Shown here piece after piece: positions 1,794 to 17,301 of a stretch of 22,317 nt of DNA. Each line of letters starts with the position of its first letter. Position 1 is the stretch's first letter. Position numbers and translations under genes: made by a program. A model generated the notes under the pieces. It ran no database searches, was not told the origin of the DNA, and saw nothing but the letters and a program-made list of their open reading frames with translations. This DNA is from a virus, in the IMG/VR virus record IMGVR_UViG_3300008050_000358, positions 1 to 22,317 of that record. The stretch is one strand, 5' to 3'.

Positions 1794-3737
1794 ATGAGTT
1801 GCGATTATCTCTACCAACATTTGTATACTAGGGCGGAATTTCCCCAGGTAGACTGGTTTAACGATTATCCGTTATACCAACCTCTCTTGTATGCACCTAT
1901 GCCCGGATCTGAGATTTGTGTTTCTAACGCTCCTTGGGATTCCGGACTAGGTTCGGATATTTTCTTAGAGTGGGAGTCCGTTCCAAATGCTTCAAATTAC
2001 ATTGTTCAATGGTGCAAGAACGGCTCTTTTAGAGGGCCTACTTTACGTGCAGTAGATGTTACTACCACTAGTTATGAGCTAAAACTGTCTGATGATATTC
2101 GTCATGGTGACGAAATTCACTGGAGAGTTATGGCGTACAACAACTTTGGGGGCCTATCTTCAAAGTCAGAACCTCGGTCGTTTAAGTATCAATGTCCTAA
2201 ACCTCAATCCGGCAAGAAGGGGGGATCTGGAAATTCTGATAACTCTGATCTTTGTGACGAATTTAATGTCGGCATAGAGATTAAGGGCGTTGACATTATG
2301 AGATGTTGTGAAACGAAATTATTCGTTGTCCATTTCTCATACGATTGTAAGGACGAGGACGGCAATCAAATTGTATCCCTTACCAATATCGCATGGTCTC
2401 TCGTTGTACCACAAGCCGAAGTTGGAAATGTTACTATCCCTGGAGCGGTTAACGGAAGAACTGTAGGTGTAAAAAGTAATTGTATTGACGATGTTATTTT
2501 TGATGTTAAGGTATGCCTAACATTTACCCACGCTCATACTGGAGCTACATTTATATGTTGTAAATCTAAGGAGGTTGTGGTAGACTGTTCTACTGACTCC
2601 AAGGATGATTTGGGTATGACTACTTTAAATATACCTTATACTTATACAGAATCTCTAGCTGATGCATGGGATGACACAGGAAATAGATTAGGGTCGGATA
2701 GTGTTACAGTTACGTCTGAGGCTTTAACGGGACCAGTATTTATAGTAGAGTCTACAACTACCGACGTTTCACAGAATGGGCATACGCCTGAGTGCAATAA
2801 TTCAGCTTCACTAGGAACCACGTTAGGGGAAAAAGTAGGGGAAGTTAATACTAGCGAGAAAAAAGTTGCTTTAGAAGCCAGAATTAATCCAGATAAGGAC
2901 GAGATTACTGCGGTTACGGTATGGTCTACTGACCCTAATTCGTTTAGTATAGAAATGGATAGGAATACGGGATTAGCTAAGTGGAGTATTACCGGCGAGC
3001 AAATGCAGATATGGGAAAACAATTCTGGTATGCTGCACAATCCTTCAGTAATACGAACAGTTACTAACTTCGGGTATCTCATAGCTTCGGATTTCTGCTA
3101 TGCTTGTACACACGATATTTACGTAGCTCCTGGGCCGGGATTCAGCGATACTTTTTACGATGACGACGATGTGGATTTAGCAGATCATATTCCAGATATA
3201 GGGGGTCATTGGGAGGCCGGGGCGGCTGCTGCATCAGATTGGGAAATTAACAGTAATACTATAGCAAATTCTGTCGCAGATCCGGATAACGATTCCTATC
3301 AAGCAGTTGTACCGTCATCAGTTAGTGCCCCTAATAAAATTACGGCTGACTTGACTATAGGTACTCATACAACCACTGGAGTTTTTGTAGGATTGATCGT
3401 TCGGTATCTCGACGAAAATAACTATTTTGTTGGGGGAATATATAATGATGGGAGTACTTCAGGTGCGAGAATTTATGAGCGAGTTGGTGGAGGGTTTACA
3501 TTAAGAGCATCTTCAGCATTTACTATTGCGGAGAGTACTGCAAGTCACTCAGTATTCGTAAGAAACGAGGCTACTCAAATAGTCTGTGATATGAATGGTT
3601 TTGTTGCTACGTACTCAACTACTCTTAATGCTACTGAACGGAATTGTGGTATACTAGGTCACACCTTTGTAGGTACGGGAGTCGGTGCTAACGATTTGAC
3701 TGTAGATAATTTGATAATAGAAGGAATACCAGAATGA
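1794..3737 (+). CDS. Tail fibre/adhesin-like protein with FN3 domain and C-terminal jelly-roll
   Basis: 647 residues. Residues ~41-133 look like a fibronectin type III domain (FLEWESVPNASNYIVQW, later HWRVMAYNNFGG). A Gly/Ser/Lys linker covers ~134-152. Residues ~153-266 form a Cys-rich beta region (CC at 171-172 and 255-256, plus other Cys) that may be an Ig-like domain. After a middle region to ~445, residues ~450-645 start with FSDTFYDDDDVDLADHIPD then GGHW, the usual opening of concanavalin/LamG-like jelly-roll domains seen in phage tail proteins and polysaccharide-active enzymes. I see no catalytic residues, so binding rather than cleavage is the simpler reading. The start is the first ATG, 6 nt after the previous stop, with only a weak ribosome site. 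The likely role is host surface or glycan binding at the tail tip. The next gene overlaps by ATGA. Confidence 0.65.
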   Translation: MSCDYLYQHLYTRAEFPQVDWFNDYPLYQPLLYAPMPGSEICVSNAPWDSGLGSDIFLEWESVPNASNYIVQWCKNGSFRGPTLRAVDVTTTSYELKLSDDIRHGDEIHWRVMAYNNFGGLSSKSEPRSFKYQCPKPQSGKKGGSGNSDNSDLCDEFNVGIEIKGVDIMRCCETKLFVVHFSYDCKDEDGNQIVSLTNIAWSLVVPQAEVGNVTIPGAVNGRTVGVKSNCIDDVIFDVKVCLTFTHAHTGATFICCKSKEVVVDCSTDSKDDLGMTTLNIPYTYTESLADAWDDTGNRLGSDSVTVTSEALTGPVFIVESTTTDVSQNGHTPECNNSASLGTTLGEKVGEVNTSEKKVALEARINPDKDEITAVTVWSTDPNSFSIEMDRNTGLAKWSITGEQMQIWENNSGMLHNPSVIRTVTNFGYLIASDFCYACTHDIYVAPGPGFSDTFYDDDDVDLADHIPDIGGHWEAGAAAASDWEINSNTIANSVADPDNDSYQAVVPSSVSAPNKITADLTIGTHTTTGVFVGLIVRYLDENNYFVGGIYNDGSTSGARIYERVGGGFTLRASSAFTIAESTASHSVFVRNEATQIVCDMNGFVATYSTTLNATERNCGILGHTFVGTGVGANDLTVDNLIIEGIPE

Positions 3738-5104
3738 ACGAAGATTATATGAAAGATTTAAGAAGTAAGATTATTAAGACTAGAGAATTTCAATTTATAC
3801 CTGGGAGGGGCCAACCTCGCCAAGTATCGTTACTAGAGGACGGGTTTATAGATGACGCCGGGGGGCACAATACTCTAGCTGCTTGGGAACTATCTTGGGA
3901 CGAAGCCCGAACAATCCACTGTATTAAACTATTTGCTGAAGATAGTACTATCGTCACTTTCTTATCTAGTGATAAAGACGGGCATTGGAAAGGGCGGGAT
4001 CGTCGTACAAAAGGAACGGTGTGTCTGATACCACTACCGTTAGGGGACCGCACTTGGGAAGCATTCGTTGACCCAACTAAGTGGTCCCAAACAATACACC
4101 CTGATCCCAATAAGGAAGAGTTTCACATGTTGGAACCTCTTCCTAGACAATTGGATTGGACGGTTGTGGATAGTTGGGACATTCGGGATCATTTAGAAAC
4201 AGAAAAAACTAAATTACCCGAATCCAATACGGCAGCTATTCTTATAGGATTTAATCGACCTGATTATTTCGAGAAGGTAGTGCAATCGATTGCACAAAAT
4301 CCAGAGGCTCAAACCACACCATTCTTTGTGTTTATGGATAAATGGCGGGATGACTTAGTTACTAATCGTCAAATTAAGGTAGCTAAGGATAATTTGCCCC
4401 ATTGTGCAATCATTAGGCGAAACATCAATTTAGGCTGTGGTCGGAATATTATTGACGCTAGAAAGCAAATCTTCGACCATCTCGGATATGAACGAGCTTG
4501 GGTATTTGAAGATGATCTAGTAATACCCCCTAACTACATGGCTTATTGTAATAATCTAATGGAGTGGGGCAGTAATCAATATGGAAACATCGGGGCAGTT
4601 CAAGGATGGACCCACTCGTTTATGGATCTTTCGGAGAAGATGGCTCAACAGCACCAAGTATTCTCAACATATCAAAGTTGGTGGGGATATTTGATGAAGA
4701 AGGAGGCTTGGGATTCTATCAAGGATTTCCTATACTCTTATCAGAACCTATTTTTGGGCGGGGCTTATATGCAACGGCCTCACCGATCAGTCGTTAAATG
4801 GTTCCACACTTATATGAAGGATACACCTGTAGAGCGTCTCCCAATGTATCCTGAAAACGCTGTTCAGACTATAGATCGTAGGGATAGGTTTAATGCACCT
4901 CCTAGTGGTCAAGACGGAGCAACTTGGATCTCGTTTTACCAGCAAGGATGGGTTCGACTAGCTCCTACAGTGGGCAGAGCCCAATATATAGGTAAGCACG
5001 GGATTCACATGAATAGCAGTTTTTGGGATAGAATGAAATTTGAAGATTTAACGTTAGATGTTTTAGAAGGCGACGAGTCTATAAAGGAGTTTATCCCAGC
5101 ATGA
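3734..5104 (+). CDS. GT-A fold glycosyltransferase with extra N-terminal domain
   Basis: 456 residues, start in an ATGA overlap, preceded by AAGGA about 9 nt upstream. The catalytic domain begins near residue 167 with a Rossmann-like strand and loop (AAILIGFNRPDYFEKVVQSI). It continues with an NxxLGCGRN segment (231-238) and has the acidic triad EDD at 259-261, in the place of the DxD motif that binds metal and nucleotide sugar. The EDD form and the 'N..RP.Y' opening resemble the GNT-I/GT13 and GT2-like families. The downstream QSWWGYLMKKEAW is consistent with an acceptor-side region. Residues 1-165 form a separate domain of short beta segments that I do not recognise. The enzyme should transfer a sugar from an activated nucleotide; donor and acceptor are unknown. 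It is co-transcribed with two other glycosyltransferases and lies between tail genes. A palindrome copy lies at 4281-4294. Confidence 0.75.
   Translation: MNEDYMKDLRSKIIKTREFQFIPGRGQPRQVSLLEDGFIDDAGGHNTLAAWELSWDEARTIHCIKLFAEDSTIVTFLSSDKDGHWKGRDRRTKGTVCLIPLPLGDRTWEAFVDPTKWSQTIHPDPNKEEFHMLEPLPRQLDWTVVDSWDIRDHLETEKTKLPESNTAAILIGFNRPDYFEKVVQSIAQNPEAQTTPFFVFMDKWRDDLVTNRQIKVAKDNLPHCAIIRRNINLGCGRNIIDARKQIFDHLGYERAWVFEDDLVIPPNYMAYCNNLMEWGSNQYGNIGAVQGWTHSFMDLSEKMAQQHQVFSTYQSWWGYLMKKEAWDSIKDFLYSYQNLFLGGAYMQRPHRSVVKWFHTYMKDTPVERLPMYPENAVQTIDRRDRFNAPPSGQDGATWISFYQQGWVRLAPTVGRAQYIGKHGIHMNSSFWDRMKFEDLTLDVLEGDESIKEFIPA
4281..4294. promoter_or_regulatory. Dispersed palindrome, copy 2 (TGCAATCGATTGCA)
   Basis: Perfect palindrome, extending one base each side as G...C. 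Class B centre (TCGA). It is inside the GT-A glycosyltransferase gene, read as Val-Gln-Ser-Ile-Ala-Gln. Confidence 0.6.
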
Positions 5105-5382
5105 ATATACCTAACTTAATGAAGAAAACCCTCACTCTTGCCTATGCCTTATTTAACGGTAAGTCGGTAAGTAAAGAGAGAATATCTGCTAGAGTAGAAA
5201 TTTGCTCAACGTGCGACTTAGTACGTGTACAGGGTGATGACGAGAACGGCCTTCTCCGATGCGGTATTTGTGGATGTAAAGTTGGAGAATCTGCTCTAAT
5301 TAATTTAGCTCGGTACGAGGAAACTGGGGCGTATGGGTGTAAACATCCCGATGGATCTAAGTGGCAGAAGGCAGGTGTCTAG
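5101..5382 (+). CDS. Small cysteine-rich, zinc-binding-type protein
   Basis: 93 residues; start in an ATGA overlap, with AGGAG upstream of the start. The N-terminal third is basic and mildly hydrophobic. The rest carries a Cys cluster: CSTC (35-38), then CGICGC (53-58), then a lone Cys at 80 in YGCKHPDGSKW. This C-x2-C...C-x2-C-x-C...C(P)xxxxW layout looks like a small metal-binding protein family that I recall beside glycosyltransferase genes in phages; that association is from memory and unverified. I see no catalytic residues. It could be an adaptor, a nucleic-acid binder, or a partner of the flanking glycosyltransferases. The gene extends into the upstream end of the next reading frame if an early start is used there. 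Confidence 0.6.
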   Translation: MNIPNLMKKTLTLAYALFNGKSVSKERISARVEICSTCDLVRVQGDDENGLLRCGICGCKVGESALINLARYEETGAYGCKHPDGSKWQKAGV

Positions 5383-5386
5383 GCCA

Positions 5387-6187
5387 ATGCGAATAGTTGA
5401 CTGCTTTTTATTCTTTAATGAATTGGAGTTACTAGAGCTTCGGTTGAATGAGTTATCTGATGTTGTGGACGAACATGTTTTAGTAGAAGCCACTCACACG
5501 TTTCGAGGTGAACGGAAAGAGTTGGTGTACACGAAAAACAGACGACGTTTTAAGAAGTATGAAAACAAGATAACTCATTTGGTCGTAGACAATCCACCTG
5601 AGTACGAGTTGCCGTTGCTAGATGCTGATGTTTGGGTAAGGGAGCATAATCAGCGGAAGGCACTACGACAACAGTTCGATTGGCAAGAGGGTGATTGGGT
5701 ACTATTATCCGATGTCGATGAGATCCCTAGACCGCGTGTAATTAAGAATGTGATTAAGGGAGGCAATCCCGACGCAATCTATGTCTTTAGGCAGGAGTTA
5801 TACTACTATTGGGTTAATCTACGACAGAACCAGATATGGTGTGGCACGCTTATGTTTCAGCCAAAGGATCACTGTTTTCAGGAATTGCGGGACGCTCGTT
5901 GGAATAGGCCACCTATGACTTTCTTGGAGAATGGGGGATGGCACTTTTCGTATTTAGGTGATGTAGCACGAATACAAAAAAAGATGCGTGCAAGTTCTGA
6001 GACTACTAACGAGAAATTCTTAGGTACTGCTTGGTTAGAGGAATGTTGCGTCAAAGGACTAGACCATTTACAGAGAGATGGTGAACAGTTCCGTAAGATA
6101 TTTGTTAAAGTGGGTAGTTCGTTTCCAAGATATATAACTAAGTGGCTTGTGAAATATCCGTCCCTATGCAAACGTTTGCACGATTAG
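5387..6187 (+). CDS. GT17-family glycosyltransferase (N-acetylglucosaminyltransferase-like)
   Basis: 266 residues from the chosen ATG. The opening MRIVDCFLFFNELELLELRL followed by VDEHVLVEATHTFRGERK is the signature of family GT17 (Pfam Glyco_transf_17), whose eukaryotic member is the bisecting GlcNAc transferase GnT-III. An acidic patch SDVDEIP (108-114) fits the metal/nucleotide-sugar site. I chose this start because the family signature begins at once; the frame is open further upstream with an ATG at 5351 and a GTG at 5375, the latter with AGAAGG just before it, so 4-12 extra residues are possible. Phage and bacterial GT17 members are usually about this length. It is the second enzyme of the glycosylation island. 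Its last codons contain palindrome copy 3. Confidence 0.85.
   Translation: MRIVDCFLFFNELELLELRLNELSDVVDEHVLVEATHTFRGERKELVYTKNRRRFKKYENKITHLVVDNPPEYELPLLDADVWVREHNQRKALRQQFDWQEGDWVLLSDVDEIPRPRVIKNVIKGGNPDAIYVFRQELYYYWVNLRQNQIWCGTLMFQPKDHCFQELRDARWNRPPMTFLENGGWHFSYLGDVARIQKKMRASSETTNEKFLGTAWLEECCVKGLDHLQRDGEQFRKIFVKVGSSFPRYITKWLVKYPSLCKRLHD
6167..6180. promoter_or_regulatory. Dispersed palindrome, copy 3 (TGCAAACGTTTGCA)
   Basis: Exact class A consensus, in the last codons of the GT17 gene (Cys-Lys-Arg-Leu-His-Asp-stop). Its right arm provides the TTGCAC of a possible -35 box for the next gene. Confidence 0.7.
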
Positions 6188-6203
6188 AGTAGATAAATAT
6201 AAA
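6176..6203 (+). promoter_or_regulatory. Candidate sigma70-like promoter overlapping palindrome copy 3
   Basis: TTGCAC (6176-6181), 16-bp spacer, TATAAA (6198-6203), followed by a 46-nt gap rich in A/T and then the GT-B gene with a strong AGGAG site. The -35 box would be half of the palindrome, so a bound protein would occlude RNA polymerase. It is weaker than the three consensus promoters of this window and may be chance. Confidence 0.3.
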
Positions 6204-6233
6204 ATACCGTTAACACAAGTATTAGGAGTTGAA

Positions 6234-7934
6234 ATGAGAATTGTATTGATTGGGGAAAACCCTCAAGTCCCGTCTGGATTCGGGATGCAGATGGAAATGT
6301 TAGCTAGAGGATTAGGGTTAAAACATGAAGTAACTATTTTAGCTACCAATCCTCCTAACATTATAGACGGTAACGTACATGCTTTGTTTTGTAGAGATTT
6401 AAATGTTCCTTCGGTAATGGATACCCATTTAAATAGGATAAGGCCGGATGCCGTAATAGTATTTTACCACACTCAGCAGGGGAGGGCTGCGGGAGAATTA
6501 CTACACGCTCCTGCAAACTGTCCCATATTTATTTGGTTGCCGTGGGAGGGGTCGGCTCTACCGAAGGGGTACGAGGGGTACTTTACTAATGTTCCTAACG
6601 ATACGGTAGTTCATCTATCTGAATACGCTAAAGATTTGTGGAAGGATCATGCTCCTTCTAAGAACGTAATTCCTCACGCATTTGACCCTGACATATTTAA
6701 CGTAGATTTTTGGGATAAGAAAATAGAGCGTGCTACGAAGCGGGAATTACGGCGTAAGTGGTCAGAACGTCTTAGATTTCCCTTGTTTGACGATTCACTA
6801 CTGATCCTAAACTTAGATAGGAATATTTGGCATAAGCGTTGGGATATGACATTCAGTTATTTAAAGGAGTTAAAGGCTCGTCATCACCCAAAATCCGTGC
6901 AATTGATTGCACACACTATAAAAACTACTGATGGCTCCGTTGGGGGAATTACTCACGACTTAGAGCAATTAGCTAAACTCTACGGTGTTTGGGAGCAAGT
7001 CTGCTTCACAGATTTCGGATGGTTTAACGGATTTAGTAGAGAGGAATTGGCGGAACTGTATAAACTATGCGACTTCCGCCTTTCGACTTCTCAAGGAGAG
7101 GGATTTGGAATTCCTACTTTAGAGGCTGCTGCTTGTGGATGCCCTCAAATAATAAACAATAGTACGACTATGCCGGAAATAGTTGGGTCCGACTATTCCG
7201 GTCTAATTGATAGTGCTGGCACAGAGGAGAGGTTAGACACTCTTTGGAAAGTTCCAGATACTCAAGCAATGGTAACTCAGACATTGAAGTTGTATAAGAA
7301 ATACCCAGTATTTCTTGAGGAGTGTAGAAAACTGGCCGAAACCCTTCCCGAAAAGTTTGGTAAGGATCGGGTAGTCACAGATTGGGACGATTTAATTGCA
7401 AGTAAGGCTCAAAATAAATTCAGGGGCTACTATCAATCTCATTGGGGATTTAAACCTGGACTTAGAGTATCTCAATGTAGAGAAGTCCTACCCAATATTA
7501 TCAGACGATTGAAGGTAAATCCTACAGTAATAGAGGCATTTGCATTTGATGGACTAACAGTAAGAGCCTGCTTAGAATATGGGATCGAGATATACGGGTA
7601 TGAGCCAGACGAAAATCTAAGGTCTAAATGGCACCCTTCAATTGCGAGTCGGTGGACAGGTAATCTGTTCAGTACAGATGTACTAGTCCTTACTACAAAT
7701 AACGGCGGTATTGTTACAGGAGATTTTGAGTGGATACTCTACCGACCTTATGAGGTAGCTCAATGGAATTCTCGTGAAAAGTCTAACATTAAAGACGAGT
7801 TACCGAAGACGCACACTAGACGTACAGATTTAGAAGGGTTAGCGAAGGAGTTTGTAGGAGGATTTTTTGAACATCAAATTTGGCATATAGACGATGATAC
7901 GTCTTATATACCAGAAGGGTTTAGAAAGAAATGA
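6234..7934 (+). CDS. GT-B fold glycosyltransferase (GT4-like) with C-terminal extension
   Basis: 566 residues, ATG preceded by AGGAG at 5-nt spacing. The N-terminal Rossmann domain starts MRIVLIGENPQVPSGFGMQM with the Gly-rich loop typical of GT4 enzymes. A nucleotide-binding half follows with NLDRNIWHKRWD near 193-204 and the E-x7-E signature region EGFGIPTLEA at 289-298, then CGCPQIINN, as in GT4/GT1 retaining transferases. Catalytic activity therefore looks intact. From about residue 395 to the end a further domain (~170 residues) begins RGYYQSHWGFKPG; I do not recognise it. It may bind the acceptor or anchor the enzyme to a tail protein. This is the third glycosyltransferase in the tail module. 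Palindrome copy 4 is inside it. The stop overlaps the hub gene start (ATGA). Confidence 0.85.
   Translation: MRIVLIGENPQVPSGFGMQMEMLARGLGLKHEVTILATNPPNIIDGNVHALFCRDLNVPSVMDTHLNRIRPDAVIVFYHTQQGRAAGELLHAPANCPIFIWLPWEGSALPKGYEGYFTNVPNDTVVHLSEYAKDLWKDHAPSKNVIPHAFDPDIFNVDFWDKKIERATKRELRRKWSERLRFPLFDDSLLILNLDRNIWHKRWDMTFSYLKELKARHHPKSVQLIAHTIKTTDGSVGGITHDLEQLAKLYGVWEQVCFTDFGWFNGFSREELAELYKLCDFRLSTSQGEGFGIPTLEAAACGCPQIINNSTTMPEIVGSDYSGLIDSAGTEERLDTLWKVPDTQAMVTQTLKLYKKYPVFLEECRKLAETLPEKFGKDRVVTDWDDLIASKAQNKFRGYYQSHWGFKPGLRVSQCREVLPNIIRRLKVNPTVIEAFAFDGLTVRACLEYGIEIYGYEPDENLRSKWHPSIASRWTGNLFSTDVLVLTTNNGGIVTGDFEWILYRPYEVAQWNSREKSNIKDELPKTHTRRTDLEGLAKEFVGGFFEHQIWHIDDDTSYIPEGFRKK
6898..6911. promoter_or_regulatory. 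Dispersed palindrome, copy 4 (TGCAATTGATTGCA)
   Basis: The most diverged copy: arms intact, but the central CG is TG. Class B. Inside the GT-B gene, read as Val-Gln-Leu-Ile-Ala-His. Flanked by G and C as in copies 2, 5 and 8. Confidence 0.45.
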
Positions 7935-9850
7935 CACTAGCAGGCACAGGCTTTATTGATCGAGTTATTGGTTGGAATGTCACCGTTTCTTTGCGGGGGG
8001 CCTACACAGCTACTATTCAATTAGCTAATAAGGACCAAGCCTTTACGACGGCAACCTTTTTAGGTAAGCCTATTATGATCCACCTAGATACTGATTCGTT
8101 GGCATCGTCCGGTATCGACAGTAGTTGTTTTCAAGGAAATTTACGTTGGATTTACGGTATAGTTAAAAGTGCTGAACAACAAGAAGGTGTAAGCGTCAGC
8201 ACTATGAATTTGCAGGTAGTATCGTTCGCCTCCCGACTTGCCAAGAAGCCCATTAATACGAAAGTTTACGATAGTACTACTACCATAGATTCAGTATTGG
8301 GGGATATAGTAAACACTTTTGGAGGATTACCTACAGCTTTATATAATTTTGAGGCGACTAATTTCACAACTTGCACAGCTATTTCGGGCGATAATATGCT
8401 CGATGAGGCTAAGAAGGTAGCTCAAGCGGCGAAGCAAGTATTGTTTGTAAATCGTAACGGTATGCTAGTTACTGAGAGTTGGCGGGACAATTCGACAATT
8501 GACGTACAATTACCTCCTGAGGCAATCAAAAGTGCCAGTCGAACTGTTCCTTTAACTCAACAAGCCTCATTTATAAATGTTAGGGGTTGTTGGATAAGTG
8601 GCATTAAAAAAGGCAAGACTGAGCAAAACAGTAAACGGGGTGGCAGTAAAAATCGTGGGAAGAAGGGTAAGCTAATCAAATGTTTTTCGTTGGCGGTACC
8701 AGTTCCGGTATTAATAGTGCCAATTGGAAATCTTCCTAATGGTGCAGTAGAGTCTGGCGAAGTTACTGTAGAAAGTCCGGGTGCGTTTTCAGATTCACCG
8801 GGTAGGGATGTAGCGTTAGCTATGGAGAACGCTGAGAATAGGGCTTACATTGAAGTAAGTCCTGACGGTACTCAGGGAAGTGATACTACGGACGGATTCG
8901 ACGGGACTGACCGAGAAGTAGAGATCGGCTACACCGCATACGATGAACATCCTGAAGAGTATGAATCCCCGGATGCCACAATTGCGAACCCAAAGGATAA
9001 GAAGGACGATGCTGCACTTATTAATATGTTCAGGAGATTTAATCCTAGAGTGGGAGGGGGAGGACAGGCTTCGCTCATAGCACCTAAAGAAACCCTTACT
9101 AAAACTAAGGAAGAAGTAATTGAGTTTCAACGTCAGCAAGTTGTAAAAGATACGGATCTTATGGCAGATGTGGGCGTTGTTTGGGATGAGTTTTCCAATC
9201 TATACGTAGACCAACCAGAAACACTGTTCGATATTGGAGTGAGAAAATTCGTAGACGATAAAATGTCTAGGAAGGCTTGGACTGTAGAGTTAGTCTACGT
9301 TACTTGCATAGATGTTAATGATGTAATTAAATTCACAGTTCCGGAGTCTCTAGAGGTAGTAACGGGATTAGTAACCGATATCCAACTTACGTATCAAGGG
9401 GCGGGGCCGTCGGCTCAAATGACTATGACGGTAGAATCATTTGAGGACACAGGCAGTACTTTATATCAGTCTGAGAATATACTCAAAGACCCCATTCCAA
9501 TTTCGACGGGAAGTGCGGATTGGACCGTTTCGACGGGAGGGGGTGAAGTACGATTTAGAAAGGGAGATCCTCATAAATTCGTTAGGACTACGAGTGGGAC
9601 TACGTATATAGAGCAGGACTTACTCATGGAAGTAGGCGTGCCTTTTGTAGCCTCTGCGTGGGTCAATTCCGGTACGTTGACGATAGAGATTCGGGATTCG
9701 GGGGGAGTACACTCAACCGTTTCTGGTACAGGTCAGATAGACCACTCTTTTACACCTGATGAGGAAGCAACCACAGTTCGATATACTTATACTGGATCGT
9801 CTACAATCATATTTCAAAATATGAAACTTGTGAAGTTCAAGACCGCATAG
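7931..9850 (+). CDS. Baseplate hub / tail-tip protein (gp27-like) with C-terminal jelly-roll
   Basis: 639 residues, start in an ATGA overlap. Residues ~1-215 read like a tail hub protein: beta-rich start, a receptor-like domain with TFGGLPTALYNFE, then the segment ISGDNMLDEAKKVAQAAKQV followed by LFVNRNGMLV, the 'helix then Asp/Asn-Gly turn' typical of gpD/gp27-like hub proteins. A Lys/Gly/Arg-rich stretch (226-250) marks an exposed linker. A middle region carries acidic loops, then VDDKMSRKAWTVELVYV with strands near 440-500 that may be a second hub domain. Residues ~515-638 (DWTVSTGGGEVRFRKG onward) look like a carbohydrate-binding jelly-roll. The hub closes the tail tube and joins it to the tip. 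Next to it is promoter P1; no terminator separates the two. Confidence 0.65.
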   Translation: MTLAGTGFIDRVIGWNVTVSLRGAYTATIQLANKDQAFTTATFLGKPIMIHLDTDSLASSGIDSSCFQGNLRWIYGIVKSAEQQEGVSVSTMNLQVVSFASRLAKKPINTKVYDSTTTIDSVLGDIVNTFGGLPTALYNFEATNFTTCTAISGDNMLDEAKKVAQAAKQVLFVNRNGMLVTESWRDNSTIDVQLPPEAIKSASRTVPLTQQASFINVRGCWISGIKKGKTEQNSKRGGSKNRGKKGKLIKCFSLAVPVPVLIVPIGNLPNGAVESGEVTVESPGAFSDSPGRDVALAMENAENRAYIEVSPDGTQGSDTTDGFDGTDREVEIGYTAYDEHPEEYESPDATIANPKDKKDDAALINMFRRFNPRVGGGGQASLIAPKETLTKTKEEVIEFQRQQVVKDTDLMADVGVVWDEFSNLYVDQPETLFDIGVRKFVDDKMSRKAWTVELVYVTCIDVNDVIKFTVPESLEVVTGLVTDIQLTYQGAGPSAQMTMTVESFEDTGSTLYQSENILKDPIPISTGSADWTVSTGGGEVRFRKGDPHKFVRTTSGTTYIEQDLLMEVGVPFVASAWVNSGTLTIEIRDSGGVHSTVSGTGQIDHSFTPDEEATTVRYTYTGSSTIIFQNMKLVKFKTA

Positions 9851-15076: not shown

Positions 15077-16945
15077 ATGCAACCATCGGAAGCTATACGA
15101 AAAGCTAAAGAAGCTGGAATGTTCTGCTTTGACATAGAACATGATCCAGAATTAAAATCTAGTGACCCGGACTTTAAAATGTTCGGATGCGGGTTCAAGA
15201 CGGACGGCGTGCAAACGTTTGCACGCGACCCGAAATGGGTAAGCATAGTCCTAAAAACCCTCTTCGCAGATCCAACCATAGATGCGGTAGCCTATAACGG
15301 CAAGTACGATCTTCGATGCTTGGCCGCAGCTAAGATAATCTCGTTTGAAGATTTTCCTACGGAATCCCTATGCGACCCTATGGTAGCGGTAAATCTTTTA
15401 GACGATAACCGTAAACCGGGGGAAATGGGATTAAAGAAGGTAATCCTAGACATGTTCGGATATAAGATGGCGTCCTTCAAGGAAGCTAGTTCGGACGGAT
15501 TGGACACCGAGGCGTTTGAAGAATACGCCTTAGACGATGTAATTCAAGAGTATCGTCTATGGAAATATCTTAAGCCCCAATTGGAAGAACAAGGTTTAAT
15601 GCCCATCTTCCGAAGAATCCTAATGCCGGTATCATCCGTATTTTCTGATATGGAAATGGTAGGTATTAAATGGGACTTGGTAGGAGCCCGCCGACTTCTT
15701 CGGGGATTCCAAGAGCTTAGGACTAAGATGGAAAAGGAGATCCATAACGAGATAGGTCATATCAATATTAACTCGGGGGATCAGTTAGCTAAACGACTCT
15801 TTACGGATTTAGGGTATTCAACTAGAGGGATTACTCAAACAGCTAGCGGAAAACGTTATAGCACTGACGCTTACGCTATGAATACTCTAGCCCTGAAATA
15901 TCCTATAGCAGATAAGATACGCACATATCGCACTGCTACTAAGATGATAAATACGTATATCGAACCCATTTCTCGACTAGCGTTGGACGATGTTAGGGAA
16001 CGAGTTCATCCTACTATCTGGGTTATTTCTACTACGGGTCGAACTAGAATGACTGACCCTAACTTCCAGAATATTCCGGCTTGGATTCATACGAGGAAAG
16101 GCTTTGAGCATCTGAATATTAGGAAGAACGTAATCGCAGCAGACGGATACTCTCTTATTGTAGCTGACCTATCTCAAATTGAATTACGTTTAGTAGCTCA
16201 CGTATCTAGAGATGAGATATTTACTAACGCTTACCGGACTTGGGTTTGTAGTAATTGCGGAACAGGTGAGTCGGACGTAATCCTCCATCGTTGCCCAAAG
16301 TGTAACTTATTAGAGAACGAGTCAGCTTTAAAAGGAGGCGAGGGATTTTGGCACGGGGAAGATTTACATCAAAAGACGTGCGATCTAGTACCGGCAACTA
16401 AGAATCGTCAAGGAGCTAAGACGGCCAATTTCGCTCTAGTTTATCTGGCTACGGCTTGGAAGATGCATATCGAATATCCGGACCTTTCGGTTCGGGAATG
16501 GGAGAAAGTAATTAAAGAATACTTTGCCCGAGACGCATATTTCGGGGTACATAAGTGGCATATTCGGATGGAGCACTTATTTAAAACTAGGAGAGTGTGT
16601 ACGGATATTTTTGGAAGAAAGCGTCGAATACCGGCGGCTGCCGTAAAACGTAGTTATAAACACGCTCTAAACCAGTTCGTTAACTTCATTCCTCAAGCAT
16701 CAGCTTGTGCTATGATGGAATTGGCCGCAGTTAATATGAGAAAGGATTTCATTGATCGGGAGGTATGGAGAAGGGAAATTTACCCAGTCAACTTCATCCA
16801 CGACGAATTAGTATTTGAAGCACCTGACGAGTTAGCGGAAAAGTACGCCCGAGAAATTAGAGATCACATGGAACTAACGGTTCAACTTAAAGTACCTGTT
16901 AGAGCCGACGTAGTGATAGCAAAACGATGGGGAGATGCGAAGTGA
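15077..16945 (+). CDS. Family A DNA polymerase with 3'-5' exonuclease and inserted zinc ribbon
   Basis: 622 residues from ATG 15077 (GGAG 7 nt upstream; an upstream TTG lies before the terminator and is rejected). The exonuclease site is intact: Asp19 and Glu21 in FDIEHD, Asp78 in AYNGKYD, Tyr150 and Asp154 in YALDDV. No 5'-3' exonuclease domain. Polymerase motif A is VADLSQIELR (Asp364), motif B is RQGAKTANFALVY (Arg444, Lys448, Phe452, Tyr456), motif C is IHDELVFE (His575-Glu577). Between motifs A and B is an inserted four-cysteine ribbon (Cys391, Cys394, Cys406, Cys409) not present in E. coli Pol I. Motif B has Ala where Pol I has Gly after Phe. It is the replicative polymerase of this phage. 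The HNH gene overlaps its stop. Palindrome copy 8 lies 133 nt into the gene. Confidence 0.93.
   Translation: MQPSEAIRKAKEAGMFCFDIEHDPELKSSDPDFKMFGCGFKTDGVQTFARDPKWVSIVLKTLFADPTIDAVAYNGKYDLRCLAAAKIISFEDFPTESLCDPMVAVNLLDDNRKPGEMGLKKVILDMFGYKMASFKEASSDGLDTEAFEEYALDDVIQEYRLWKYLKPQLEEQGLMPIFRRILMPVSSVFSDMEMVGIKWDLVGARRLLRGFQELRTKMEKEIHNEIGHININSGDQLAKRLFTDLGYSTRGITQTASGKRYSTDAYAMNTLALKYPIADKIRTYRTATKMINTYIEPISRLALDDVRERVHPTIWVISTTGRTRMTDPNFQNIPAWIHTRKGFEHLNIRKNVIAADGYSLIVADLSQIELRLVAHVSRDEIFTNAYRTWVCSNCGTGESDVILHRCPKCNLLENESALKGGEGFWHGEDLHQKTCDLVPATKNRQGAKTANFALVYLATAWKMHIEYPDLSVREWEKVIKEYFARDAYFGVHKWHIRMEHLFKTRRVCTDIFGRKRRIPAAAVKRSYKHALNQFVNFIPQASACAMMELAAVNMRKDFIDREVWRREIYPVNFIHDELVFEAPDELAEKYAREIRDHMELTVQLKVPVRADVVIAKRWGDAK
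15210..15223. promoter_or_regulatory. Dispersed palindrome, copy 8 (TGCAAACGTTTGCA)
   Basis: Exact class A consensus, extended by G and C to 16 bp. Inside the polymerase gene near its 5' end, read as Val-Gln-Thr-Phe-Ala-Arg, a different frame from copies 3, 6 and 10. Confidence 0.72.
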
Positions 16946-17301
16946 CCGTGGAATATCTCAAACTTGAAGGTTATCCGGGGTATATCGTCAGTAATGACGG
17001 AAAGATTTGGTCGGTGGCGAAAGGGTCGCTCCATGAAGTAAAAGGTCGGGATAACGGGAAGGGGTATTTACAAGTAGTTTTATATAAGAGAGCCGGGGTA
17101 ACTACAGAGAAGCATCAGAAGTACGTTCACGTACTTATCGCTGAAGCGTTTATAGGTCCGTCACCTGGAGAAAACTATCAAGTAAATCACAAGAATAAGA
17201 TTAGGACCGATTGTTCCGTAGCTAATCTTGAATGGCTCACCGACATAGATAATTATCGACATCGGGATGGCATATTACCGGCAGAGGAGTACCGGGATTG
17301 A
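16942..17301 (+). CDS. HNH endonuclease with NUMOD4 motif (homing-type)
   Basis: 119 residues from a GTG in a GTGA overlap with the polymerase stop, chosen because GGAG lies 7 nt upstream; an in-frame ATG at 16927 would add five residues. The N-terminus (YLKLEGYPGYIVSNDGKIWS) is the NUMOD4 DNA-binding motif. The HNH core is YVHVLIAEAF...GENYQVNHKNKIRTDCSVANLEWLT: the first His-Val-Leu block, the central Asn-His, and the final Asn-Leu-Glu-Trp as in the HNH_3 family. Such free-standing nucleases usually nick DNA and spread by gene conversion into related phages, often beside polymerase or nucleotide genes. I see no intron or intein boundary in the polymerase. The stop codon overlaps the -35 box of promoter P3. 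Confidence 0.88.
   Translation: MTVEYLKLEGYPGYIVSNDGKIWSVAKGSLHEVKGRDNGKGYLQVVLYKRAGVTTEKHQKYVHVLIAEAFIGPSPGENYQVNHKNKIRTDCSVANLEWLTDIDNYRHRDGILPAEEYRD

Follow-up and report, generated by a model that had tools for sequence, protein, structure and literature searches.

A putative virion-glycosylation module in the tail-tip operon of an apparently lytic phage lineage

Gene content of the tail-tip operon

The window, by which we mean the whole 22,317-nt stretch analysed, is the IMG/VR virus record IMGVR_UViG_3300008050_000358, and all of its genes lie on the + strand. According to the ORF list and family searches, the end of a tape-measure gene is followed by a tail-tip segment and then by a replication segment (DnaC-like loader, DnaB helicase, primase, DNA polymerase, helicase, UvsX-like recombinase and Cas4-like exonuclease). 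Behind the DNA polymerase gene, a short ORF (16927–17301) resembles an HNH endonuclease by eye. Directly after the tape-measure C-terminus lies g02 (1407–1787), a small conserved tail protein that matches no Pfam or PHROG family and, at 48–67% identity to its relatives, is the best marker of the lineage. An island of four genes, g04–g07 (3734–7934), then sits between the fibre-like g03 (1794–3737) and the hub-like g08 (7931–9850). The initial annotation had described this island as three transferases of three types (GT-A with EDD, GT17 and GT-B) plus a small Cys-rich protein, joined by start/stop overlaps. The ORFs, the transferase types and their position between the two tail genes were borne out; the overlaps hold at three of the five junctions, where 4-nt ATGA overlaps occur at 3734 (g03/g04), 5101 (g04/g05) and 7931 (g07/g08). 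An overlap of g05 with g06 is doubtful, since the g06 frame is open from 5333 but homology to other GT17 proteins begins at the ATG at 5387, 4 nt past the g05 stop, and a 46-nt gap separates g06 from g07. These spacings leave the GT17 as the one gene without tight coupling to its neighbours.

The first transferase, g04 (3734–5104), is a GT-A enzyme that bears an N-terminal domain of its own (∼ 160 aa). Its Pfam matches to GT2 (5.7e-4) and GNT-I (9e-3) are both under the cut-off and a direct PDB search gave no match. The predicted structure (pLDDT 69) matches GT-A enzymes, GNT-I (1foa) being the best (Foldseek, 4.5e-8). The EDD motif (residues 259–261) is invariant in nine lineages, as is Q393–D394. 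The fold prediction and this acidic, metal-binding EDD motif together identify the protein as GT-A. Assignment to the GT13/GNT-I family was rejected, as PF03071 scored 15.3 bits against a cut-off of 25.4 and the PDB profile match reached just E 0.31. The small protein g05 (5101–5382) has no Pfam match and matches PHROG 13558 (1.8e-4). Its six cysteines are invariant in nine lineages and likely form a metal site. A generic relative (from L200) matches proteins of cyanophages and a Stenotrophomonas phage, mostly of unknown function.

The GT17 assignment of g06 (5387–6187) is clear: PF04724 matches over most of its length (1.3e-31, 110 bits against a cut-off of 26), and the acidic SDxDE motif is kept in relatives. 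In g07 (6234–7934), residues 1 to ∼ 390 form a GT4 domain of GT-B fold (PF00534, Glycos_transf_1, 9.4e-15). The predicted structure gives GT-B matches, the best being the chlorovirus protein 3oy2 (1.1e-16), and both glutamates of the E-x7-E motif (E289 and E297) are invariant in nine lineages, together with K201. The initial annotation overlooked that this domain is fused to a C-terminal methyltransferase-like domain. Matches to the latter are weak (Pfam Methyltransf_23 1.3e-5 in L169, below the cut-off; PDB 0.0065), and in relatives its motif I reads EVGSFDG and is accompanied by an acidic motif II. In the window, F replaces the first motif-I glycine and the domain is modelled with low confidence; this copy may be inactive. 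The invariance of the motif residues of g04, g05 and g07 suggests that the island enzymes are probably active. A hydrophobicity check found no strongly hydrophobic stretch in the transferases.

Assignment of the flanking genes relies more on context. By sequence g08, the syntenic next gene, is weakly hub-like (Phage_GPD 0.002, VgrG 0.007), in agreement with gene order and conservation. We call g03 a fibre-like tail-tip protein from its position and variable C-terminus; it has no Pfam or PHROG match. Its first ∼ 265 residues are conserved and the remainder varies. Residues 301–350, within the variable part, are 32% Ser+Thr and form a plausible O-glycosylation site. By eye, the C-termini of g03 (3110–3737) and the hub protein (9430–9850) look like carbohydrate-binding β-sandwiches; neither has a profile match.

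Core, variable slot and capsid side in related phages

Relatives were reached solely by alignment-based IMG/VR scans, which gave L088 and L089 first and then about a dozen distinct lineages; tblastn of g04, g05 and the hub against 50,697 annotated phage records returned no match, and single-protein IMG/VR scans with g04, g07 and the hub found no relatives. About 13 deeply diverged IMG/VR relatives share the tail-to-replication backbone in the same order at ∼ 25–68% identity. Nine distinct lineages (the window, L169, L173/L202, L088/L168, L089/L172, L198, L201, L204 and L206) retain, at 30–53% identity, a gene order that runs from the fibre through the GT-A, the Cys protein and the GT4 with its methyltransferase-like tail to the hub. 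Related phages thus keep the island beside the same fibre–hub pair, which answers a check proposed in the initial annotation, and we regard the core order as beyond chance because it recurs across such deeply diverged lineages. The pairing is not absolute: one relative (L208) lacks the GT4 and two (L200 and L210) carry the GT-A after the hub, while L205 keeps the core order with a looser Cys protein. Small Cys-rich proteins of the g05 type lie at 5101–5382 in the window and at L205:11768–12004, L208:1767–2093 and L200:3595–3966. Since the Cys-rich protein lies near the hub even without a GT4 or in an altered gene order, it may be a tail-tip component and not part of the transferase set. Two GTDB genome scans (with the GT-A and g02) revealed no prophage and no host.

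Pairwise identity among the nine lineages averages 37% in both g04 and DnaC, 36% in g07, 29% in the hub and 44% in DnaB, which puts the two transferases on a par with the hub and DnaC. In trees, the window and L169 are sisters for both g04 (support 100/99) and g07 (100/100), L168 and L198 for both g07 and the hub (100/100 each), and L172 and L201 for g07 (94/94), the hub (100/99) and DnaB (86/92). The DnaB tree is poorly resolved, and since the deeper branches are not settled, occasional exchange is possible. Given the order kept at 30–53% identity, the invariant motifs and the agreement of the trees with those of the hub and DnaB, we take the GT-A, the Cys protein and the GT4 with its methyltransferase-like tail to be a stable core that is old and was inherited mostly vertically with the tail tip.

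Membership of the GT17 in this island, which the initial annotation treated as a unit, did not hold up to the same degree. It occupies a slot between the Cys protein and the GT4 that in L169 holds a weak PhyH-like (dioxygenase-like) gene (E 0.038) and an RMNT_CmcI sugar O-methyltransferase (2.4e-37), in L089 an HNH endonuclease (L089:9440–9964), which might drive exchange at the slot, and in L173 no gene. No GT17 scored above the cut-off in any of the ten relative contigs; G008 has one sub-threshold match, downstream of the hub gene at a distance of several kb. An alignment scan confirmed 466 GT17 loci, and none of the 80 that were compared shares a backbone with the window; a GT17 by itself is therefore no marker of the system. 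On this gene-content evidence we class it as changeable cargo, outside the stable core. Other glycan-type genes occupy further positions in the fibre-to-hub interval: a GT8 in L201 (2.3e-12), two GT2s in L205, GT2s in L200, methyltransferases in L210 and Methyltransf_24 in L088.

A further transferase accompanies the capsid genes. The major capsid protein of the relatives matches phrog_1623 (5.8e-62), and its distant homologues are annotated as such. A GT9 (heptosyltransferase-type) gene is the immediate downstream neighbour of the capsid gene in six contigs (G001, G002, G004, G008, G010 and G012) and lies ∼ 3 kb from it in a seventh; it is present as a single copy in nine of the ten relative contigs. 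Examples are L181:15866–17035 (−) and L185:1461–2660, with others near capsid genes in L218, L220, L221 and L223. Among relatives the capsid protein is 66–80% identical, whereas the GT9 is only about 31–43% identical. For the phage of the window we infer a capsid-side GT9, since the window stops short of its own capsid gene.

Some relatives also encode sugar synthesis. The contig of L169, G001, carries NeuB, a CTP-dependent CMP-sugar-type cytidylyltransferase and a GT29 sialyltransferase-like protein (L183:6176–11890, −), as well as a DegT aminotransferase and an epimerase, which suggests that this phage makes a sialic-acid-like sugar. G001 also encodes a radical SAM protein (L182:7644–8936, −) next to its DegT and epimerase sugar genes. 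The contig of L173 has DegT, an epimerase and further GT4s. Streptomyces phage Karimac and Vibrio phage HC, which are cultured but distant and have related capsids, show no annotated tail-tip transferase; in Karimac a single glycosyltransferase lies upstream of the head genes.

Proposed virion glycosylation and competing explanations

We consider it probable that the island is a virion-glycosylation module in the tail-tip operon of an apparently lytic lineage, and the data suggest that phages bearing it put sugar coats on their own particles. In the mechanism we propose, the transferases would be translated late, together with the tail-tip proteins. Soluble g04 and g07 would draw on host or phage nucleotide sugars to initiate and lengthen a glycan on a freshly synthesised protein of the tail tip. 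The likeliest acceptor is g03, through its Ser/Thr-rich variable C-terminal part, or alternatively the hub g08. The slot enzymes (the GT17 in the window, and in other phages a methyltransferase or dioxygenase-like protein) would alter the outer sugars, so that particle surfaces could differ between phages around a constant core, and the GT9 beside the capsid gene probably does likewise for the head. Decoration of the virion is favoured because the transferases are predicted to be late, are probably soluble, having no strongly hydrophobic stretch, and would be made beside their likely acceptors. The tie to structural genes is seen in nine lineages on the tail side and, for the GT9, in six contigs on the capsid side. 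Gene content and order, fold classes, conserved catalytic motifs, vertical inheritance, slot variation and the capsid-side GT9 of relatives are observed; we infer the acceptor, the sugars, the order of the enzymes, the timing and the lytic lifestyle, as well as the purpose, which could be shielding or the tuning of receptor binding.

Glycosylation of virion tail proteins, as advanced in the initial annotation, is thus the best-supported reading with the tail acceptor as a candidate; since a conserved transferase also accompanies the capsid genes, decoration probably extends beyond the tail. The accompanying idea that antibody recognition is altered found no support in this analysis. We also put forward, tentatively and with less confidence than the module itself, a two-site system, in which head and tail tip would each have a dedicated, vertically inherited transferase set beside the gene of the modified protein, with a constant core that would begin the glycan and an exchangeable slot that would diversify its outer sugars. 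If this is true, particle surface chemistry would vary between phages while their structural proteins stay unchanged.

The strongest rival has the enzymes act on glycans of the host surface (LPS, capsule or teichoic-type polymers) late in infection, so that particles stick less to debris or superinfection is blocked. GT4, GT9, GT17, DegT, NeuB and epimerase families are known in surface-polysaccharide loci, where GT9, DegT, NeuB and epimerases are typical, and G001 has such a set; RMNT_CmcI, found in the L169 slot, takes its name from an enzyme that acts on a surface glycolipid. Gene neighbourhood can mirror mere shared late expression, and vertical descent is also compatible with an essential late host-modifying role. 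Against this, the transferase genes are part of the operons for the tail tip and the capsid and have been inherited along with them, and their products have no strongly hydrophobic stretch. In temperate phages, gtr serotype-conversion cassettes (GtrA, GtrB and a type-specific Gtr) likewise encode glycosyltransferases and require the membrane flippase GtrA. We rejected the island as such a cassette, as no GtrA-type flippase was found in the ten relative contigs and no integrase in the contigs searched, records that may be incomplete; the lack of integrase also makes lysogenic conversion unlikely. Host-glycan modification, named as the main alternative in the initial annotation, is therefore weakened and in our judgement unlikely, but it still stands as a rival to virion glycosylation.

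That the locus is merely a hot spot that attracts exchangeable cargo (moron) genes, where glycan genes accumulate with no fixed role in the virion, would fit the varying slot, with its HNH endonuclease in L089, its absence of any gene in L173 and its GT17 without a homologue at that place in relatives; the invariable GT-A/Cys/GT4 core, with conserved catalytic residues and congruent trees in nine lineages, makes this very improbable. T4 α- and β-glucosyltransferases glucosylate modified DNA bases, and a system of this type here is scarcely credible: the GT-A has a very weak PHROG match to β-glucosyl-HMC-α-glucosyltransferase (E 0.028 in the window, 0.01 in L088), but this spans just ∼ 30–55 residues, the structural matches of g04 are GNT-I/GT2-like, the genes sit with structural genes and not with nucleotide metabolism, and a thymidylate-synthase-family hydroxymethylase (PF00303) was found in none of ten possibly incomplete contigs. 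A weak ThyX-like match in the contig of L169 has no bearing on base hydroxymethylation.

Relation to known systems

Few cases of phage virion glycosylation are known, and a literature search on glycosylated phage tails returned nothing specific. Glycosyltransferases encoded by mycobacteriophages (Che8, Rita) attach glycans to proteins of the virion, especially to the major capsid protein (Freeman et al. 2023, as cited in PMC11256854), and those of the cluster F1 phage Maravista lie near the 3' end of its genome (PMC11256854). The present transferases, for which the acceptors are candidates, are likewise phage-encoded; unlike those of Maravista, they lie in a tail-tip operon (in relatives also behind the capsid gene) of an unrelated uncultured lineage. 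Pontimonas phage phiPsal1 similarly has a GT4 (25% identical to g07), a methyltransferase and a GT2 among its structural genes. However, its block lies between the major capsid and neck genes of a small genome, its GT-A is of another type, and its methyltransferase is a separate gene on the other strand, whereas the methyltransferase-like domain of the window is fused to the GT4. In Microcystis phage Mae-JY09 a glycosyltransferase block lies near the capsid genes.

Virion glycosylation by mycobacteriophage enzymes and transferase blocks near capsid genes were thus already known. What appears to be new is the fixed tail-tip module, a GT-A branch beyond the Pfam cut-offs, the GT4–methyltransferase-like fusion and the link, throughout a deep lineage, to a GT9 on the capsid side. 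A lineage with transferases fixed in both capsid and tail-tip operons would suggest an old, selected trait. The candidate acceptors can be named (g03, g08 and the major capsid protein), and the slot variants offer a natural series for the effect of tail-tip sugars on adsorption and host range.

Chloroviruses glycosylate their own capsid. The best structural match of g07, B736L of PBCV-NY2A (3oy2), is likewise a virus-encoded GT4-like protein; it comes from a eukaryotic algal virus and is 16% identical in the structural alignment, a distant relation at the level of the fold only.
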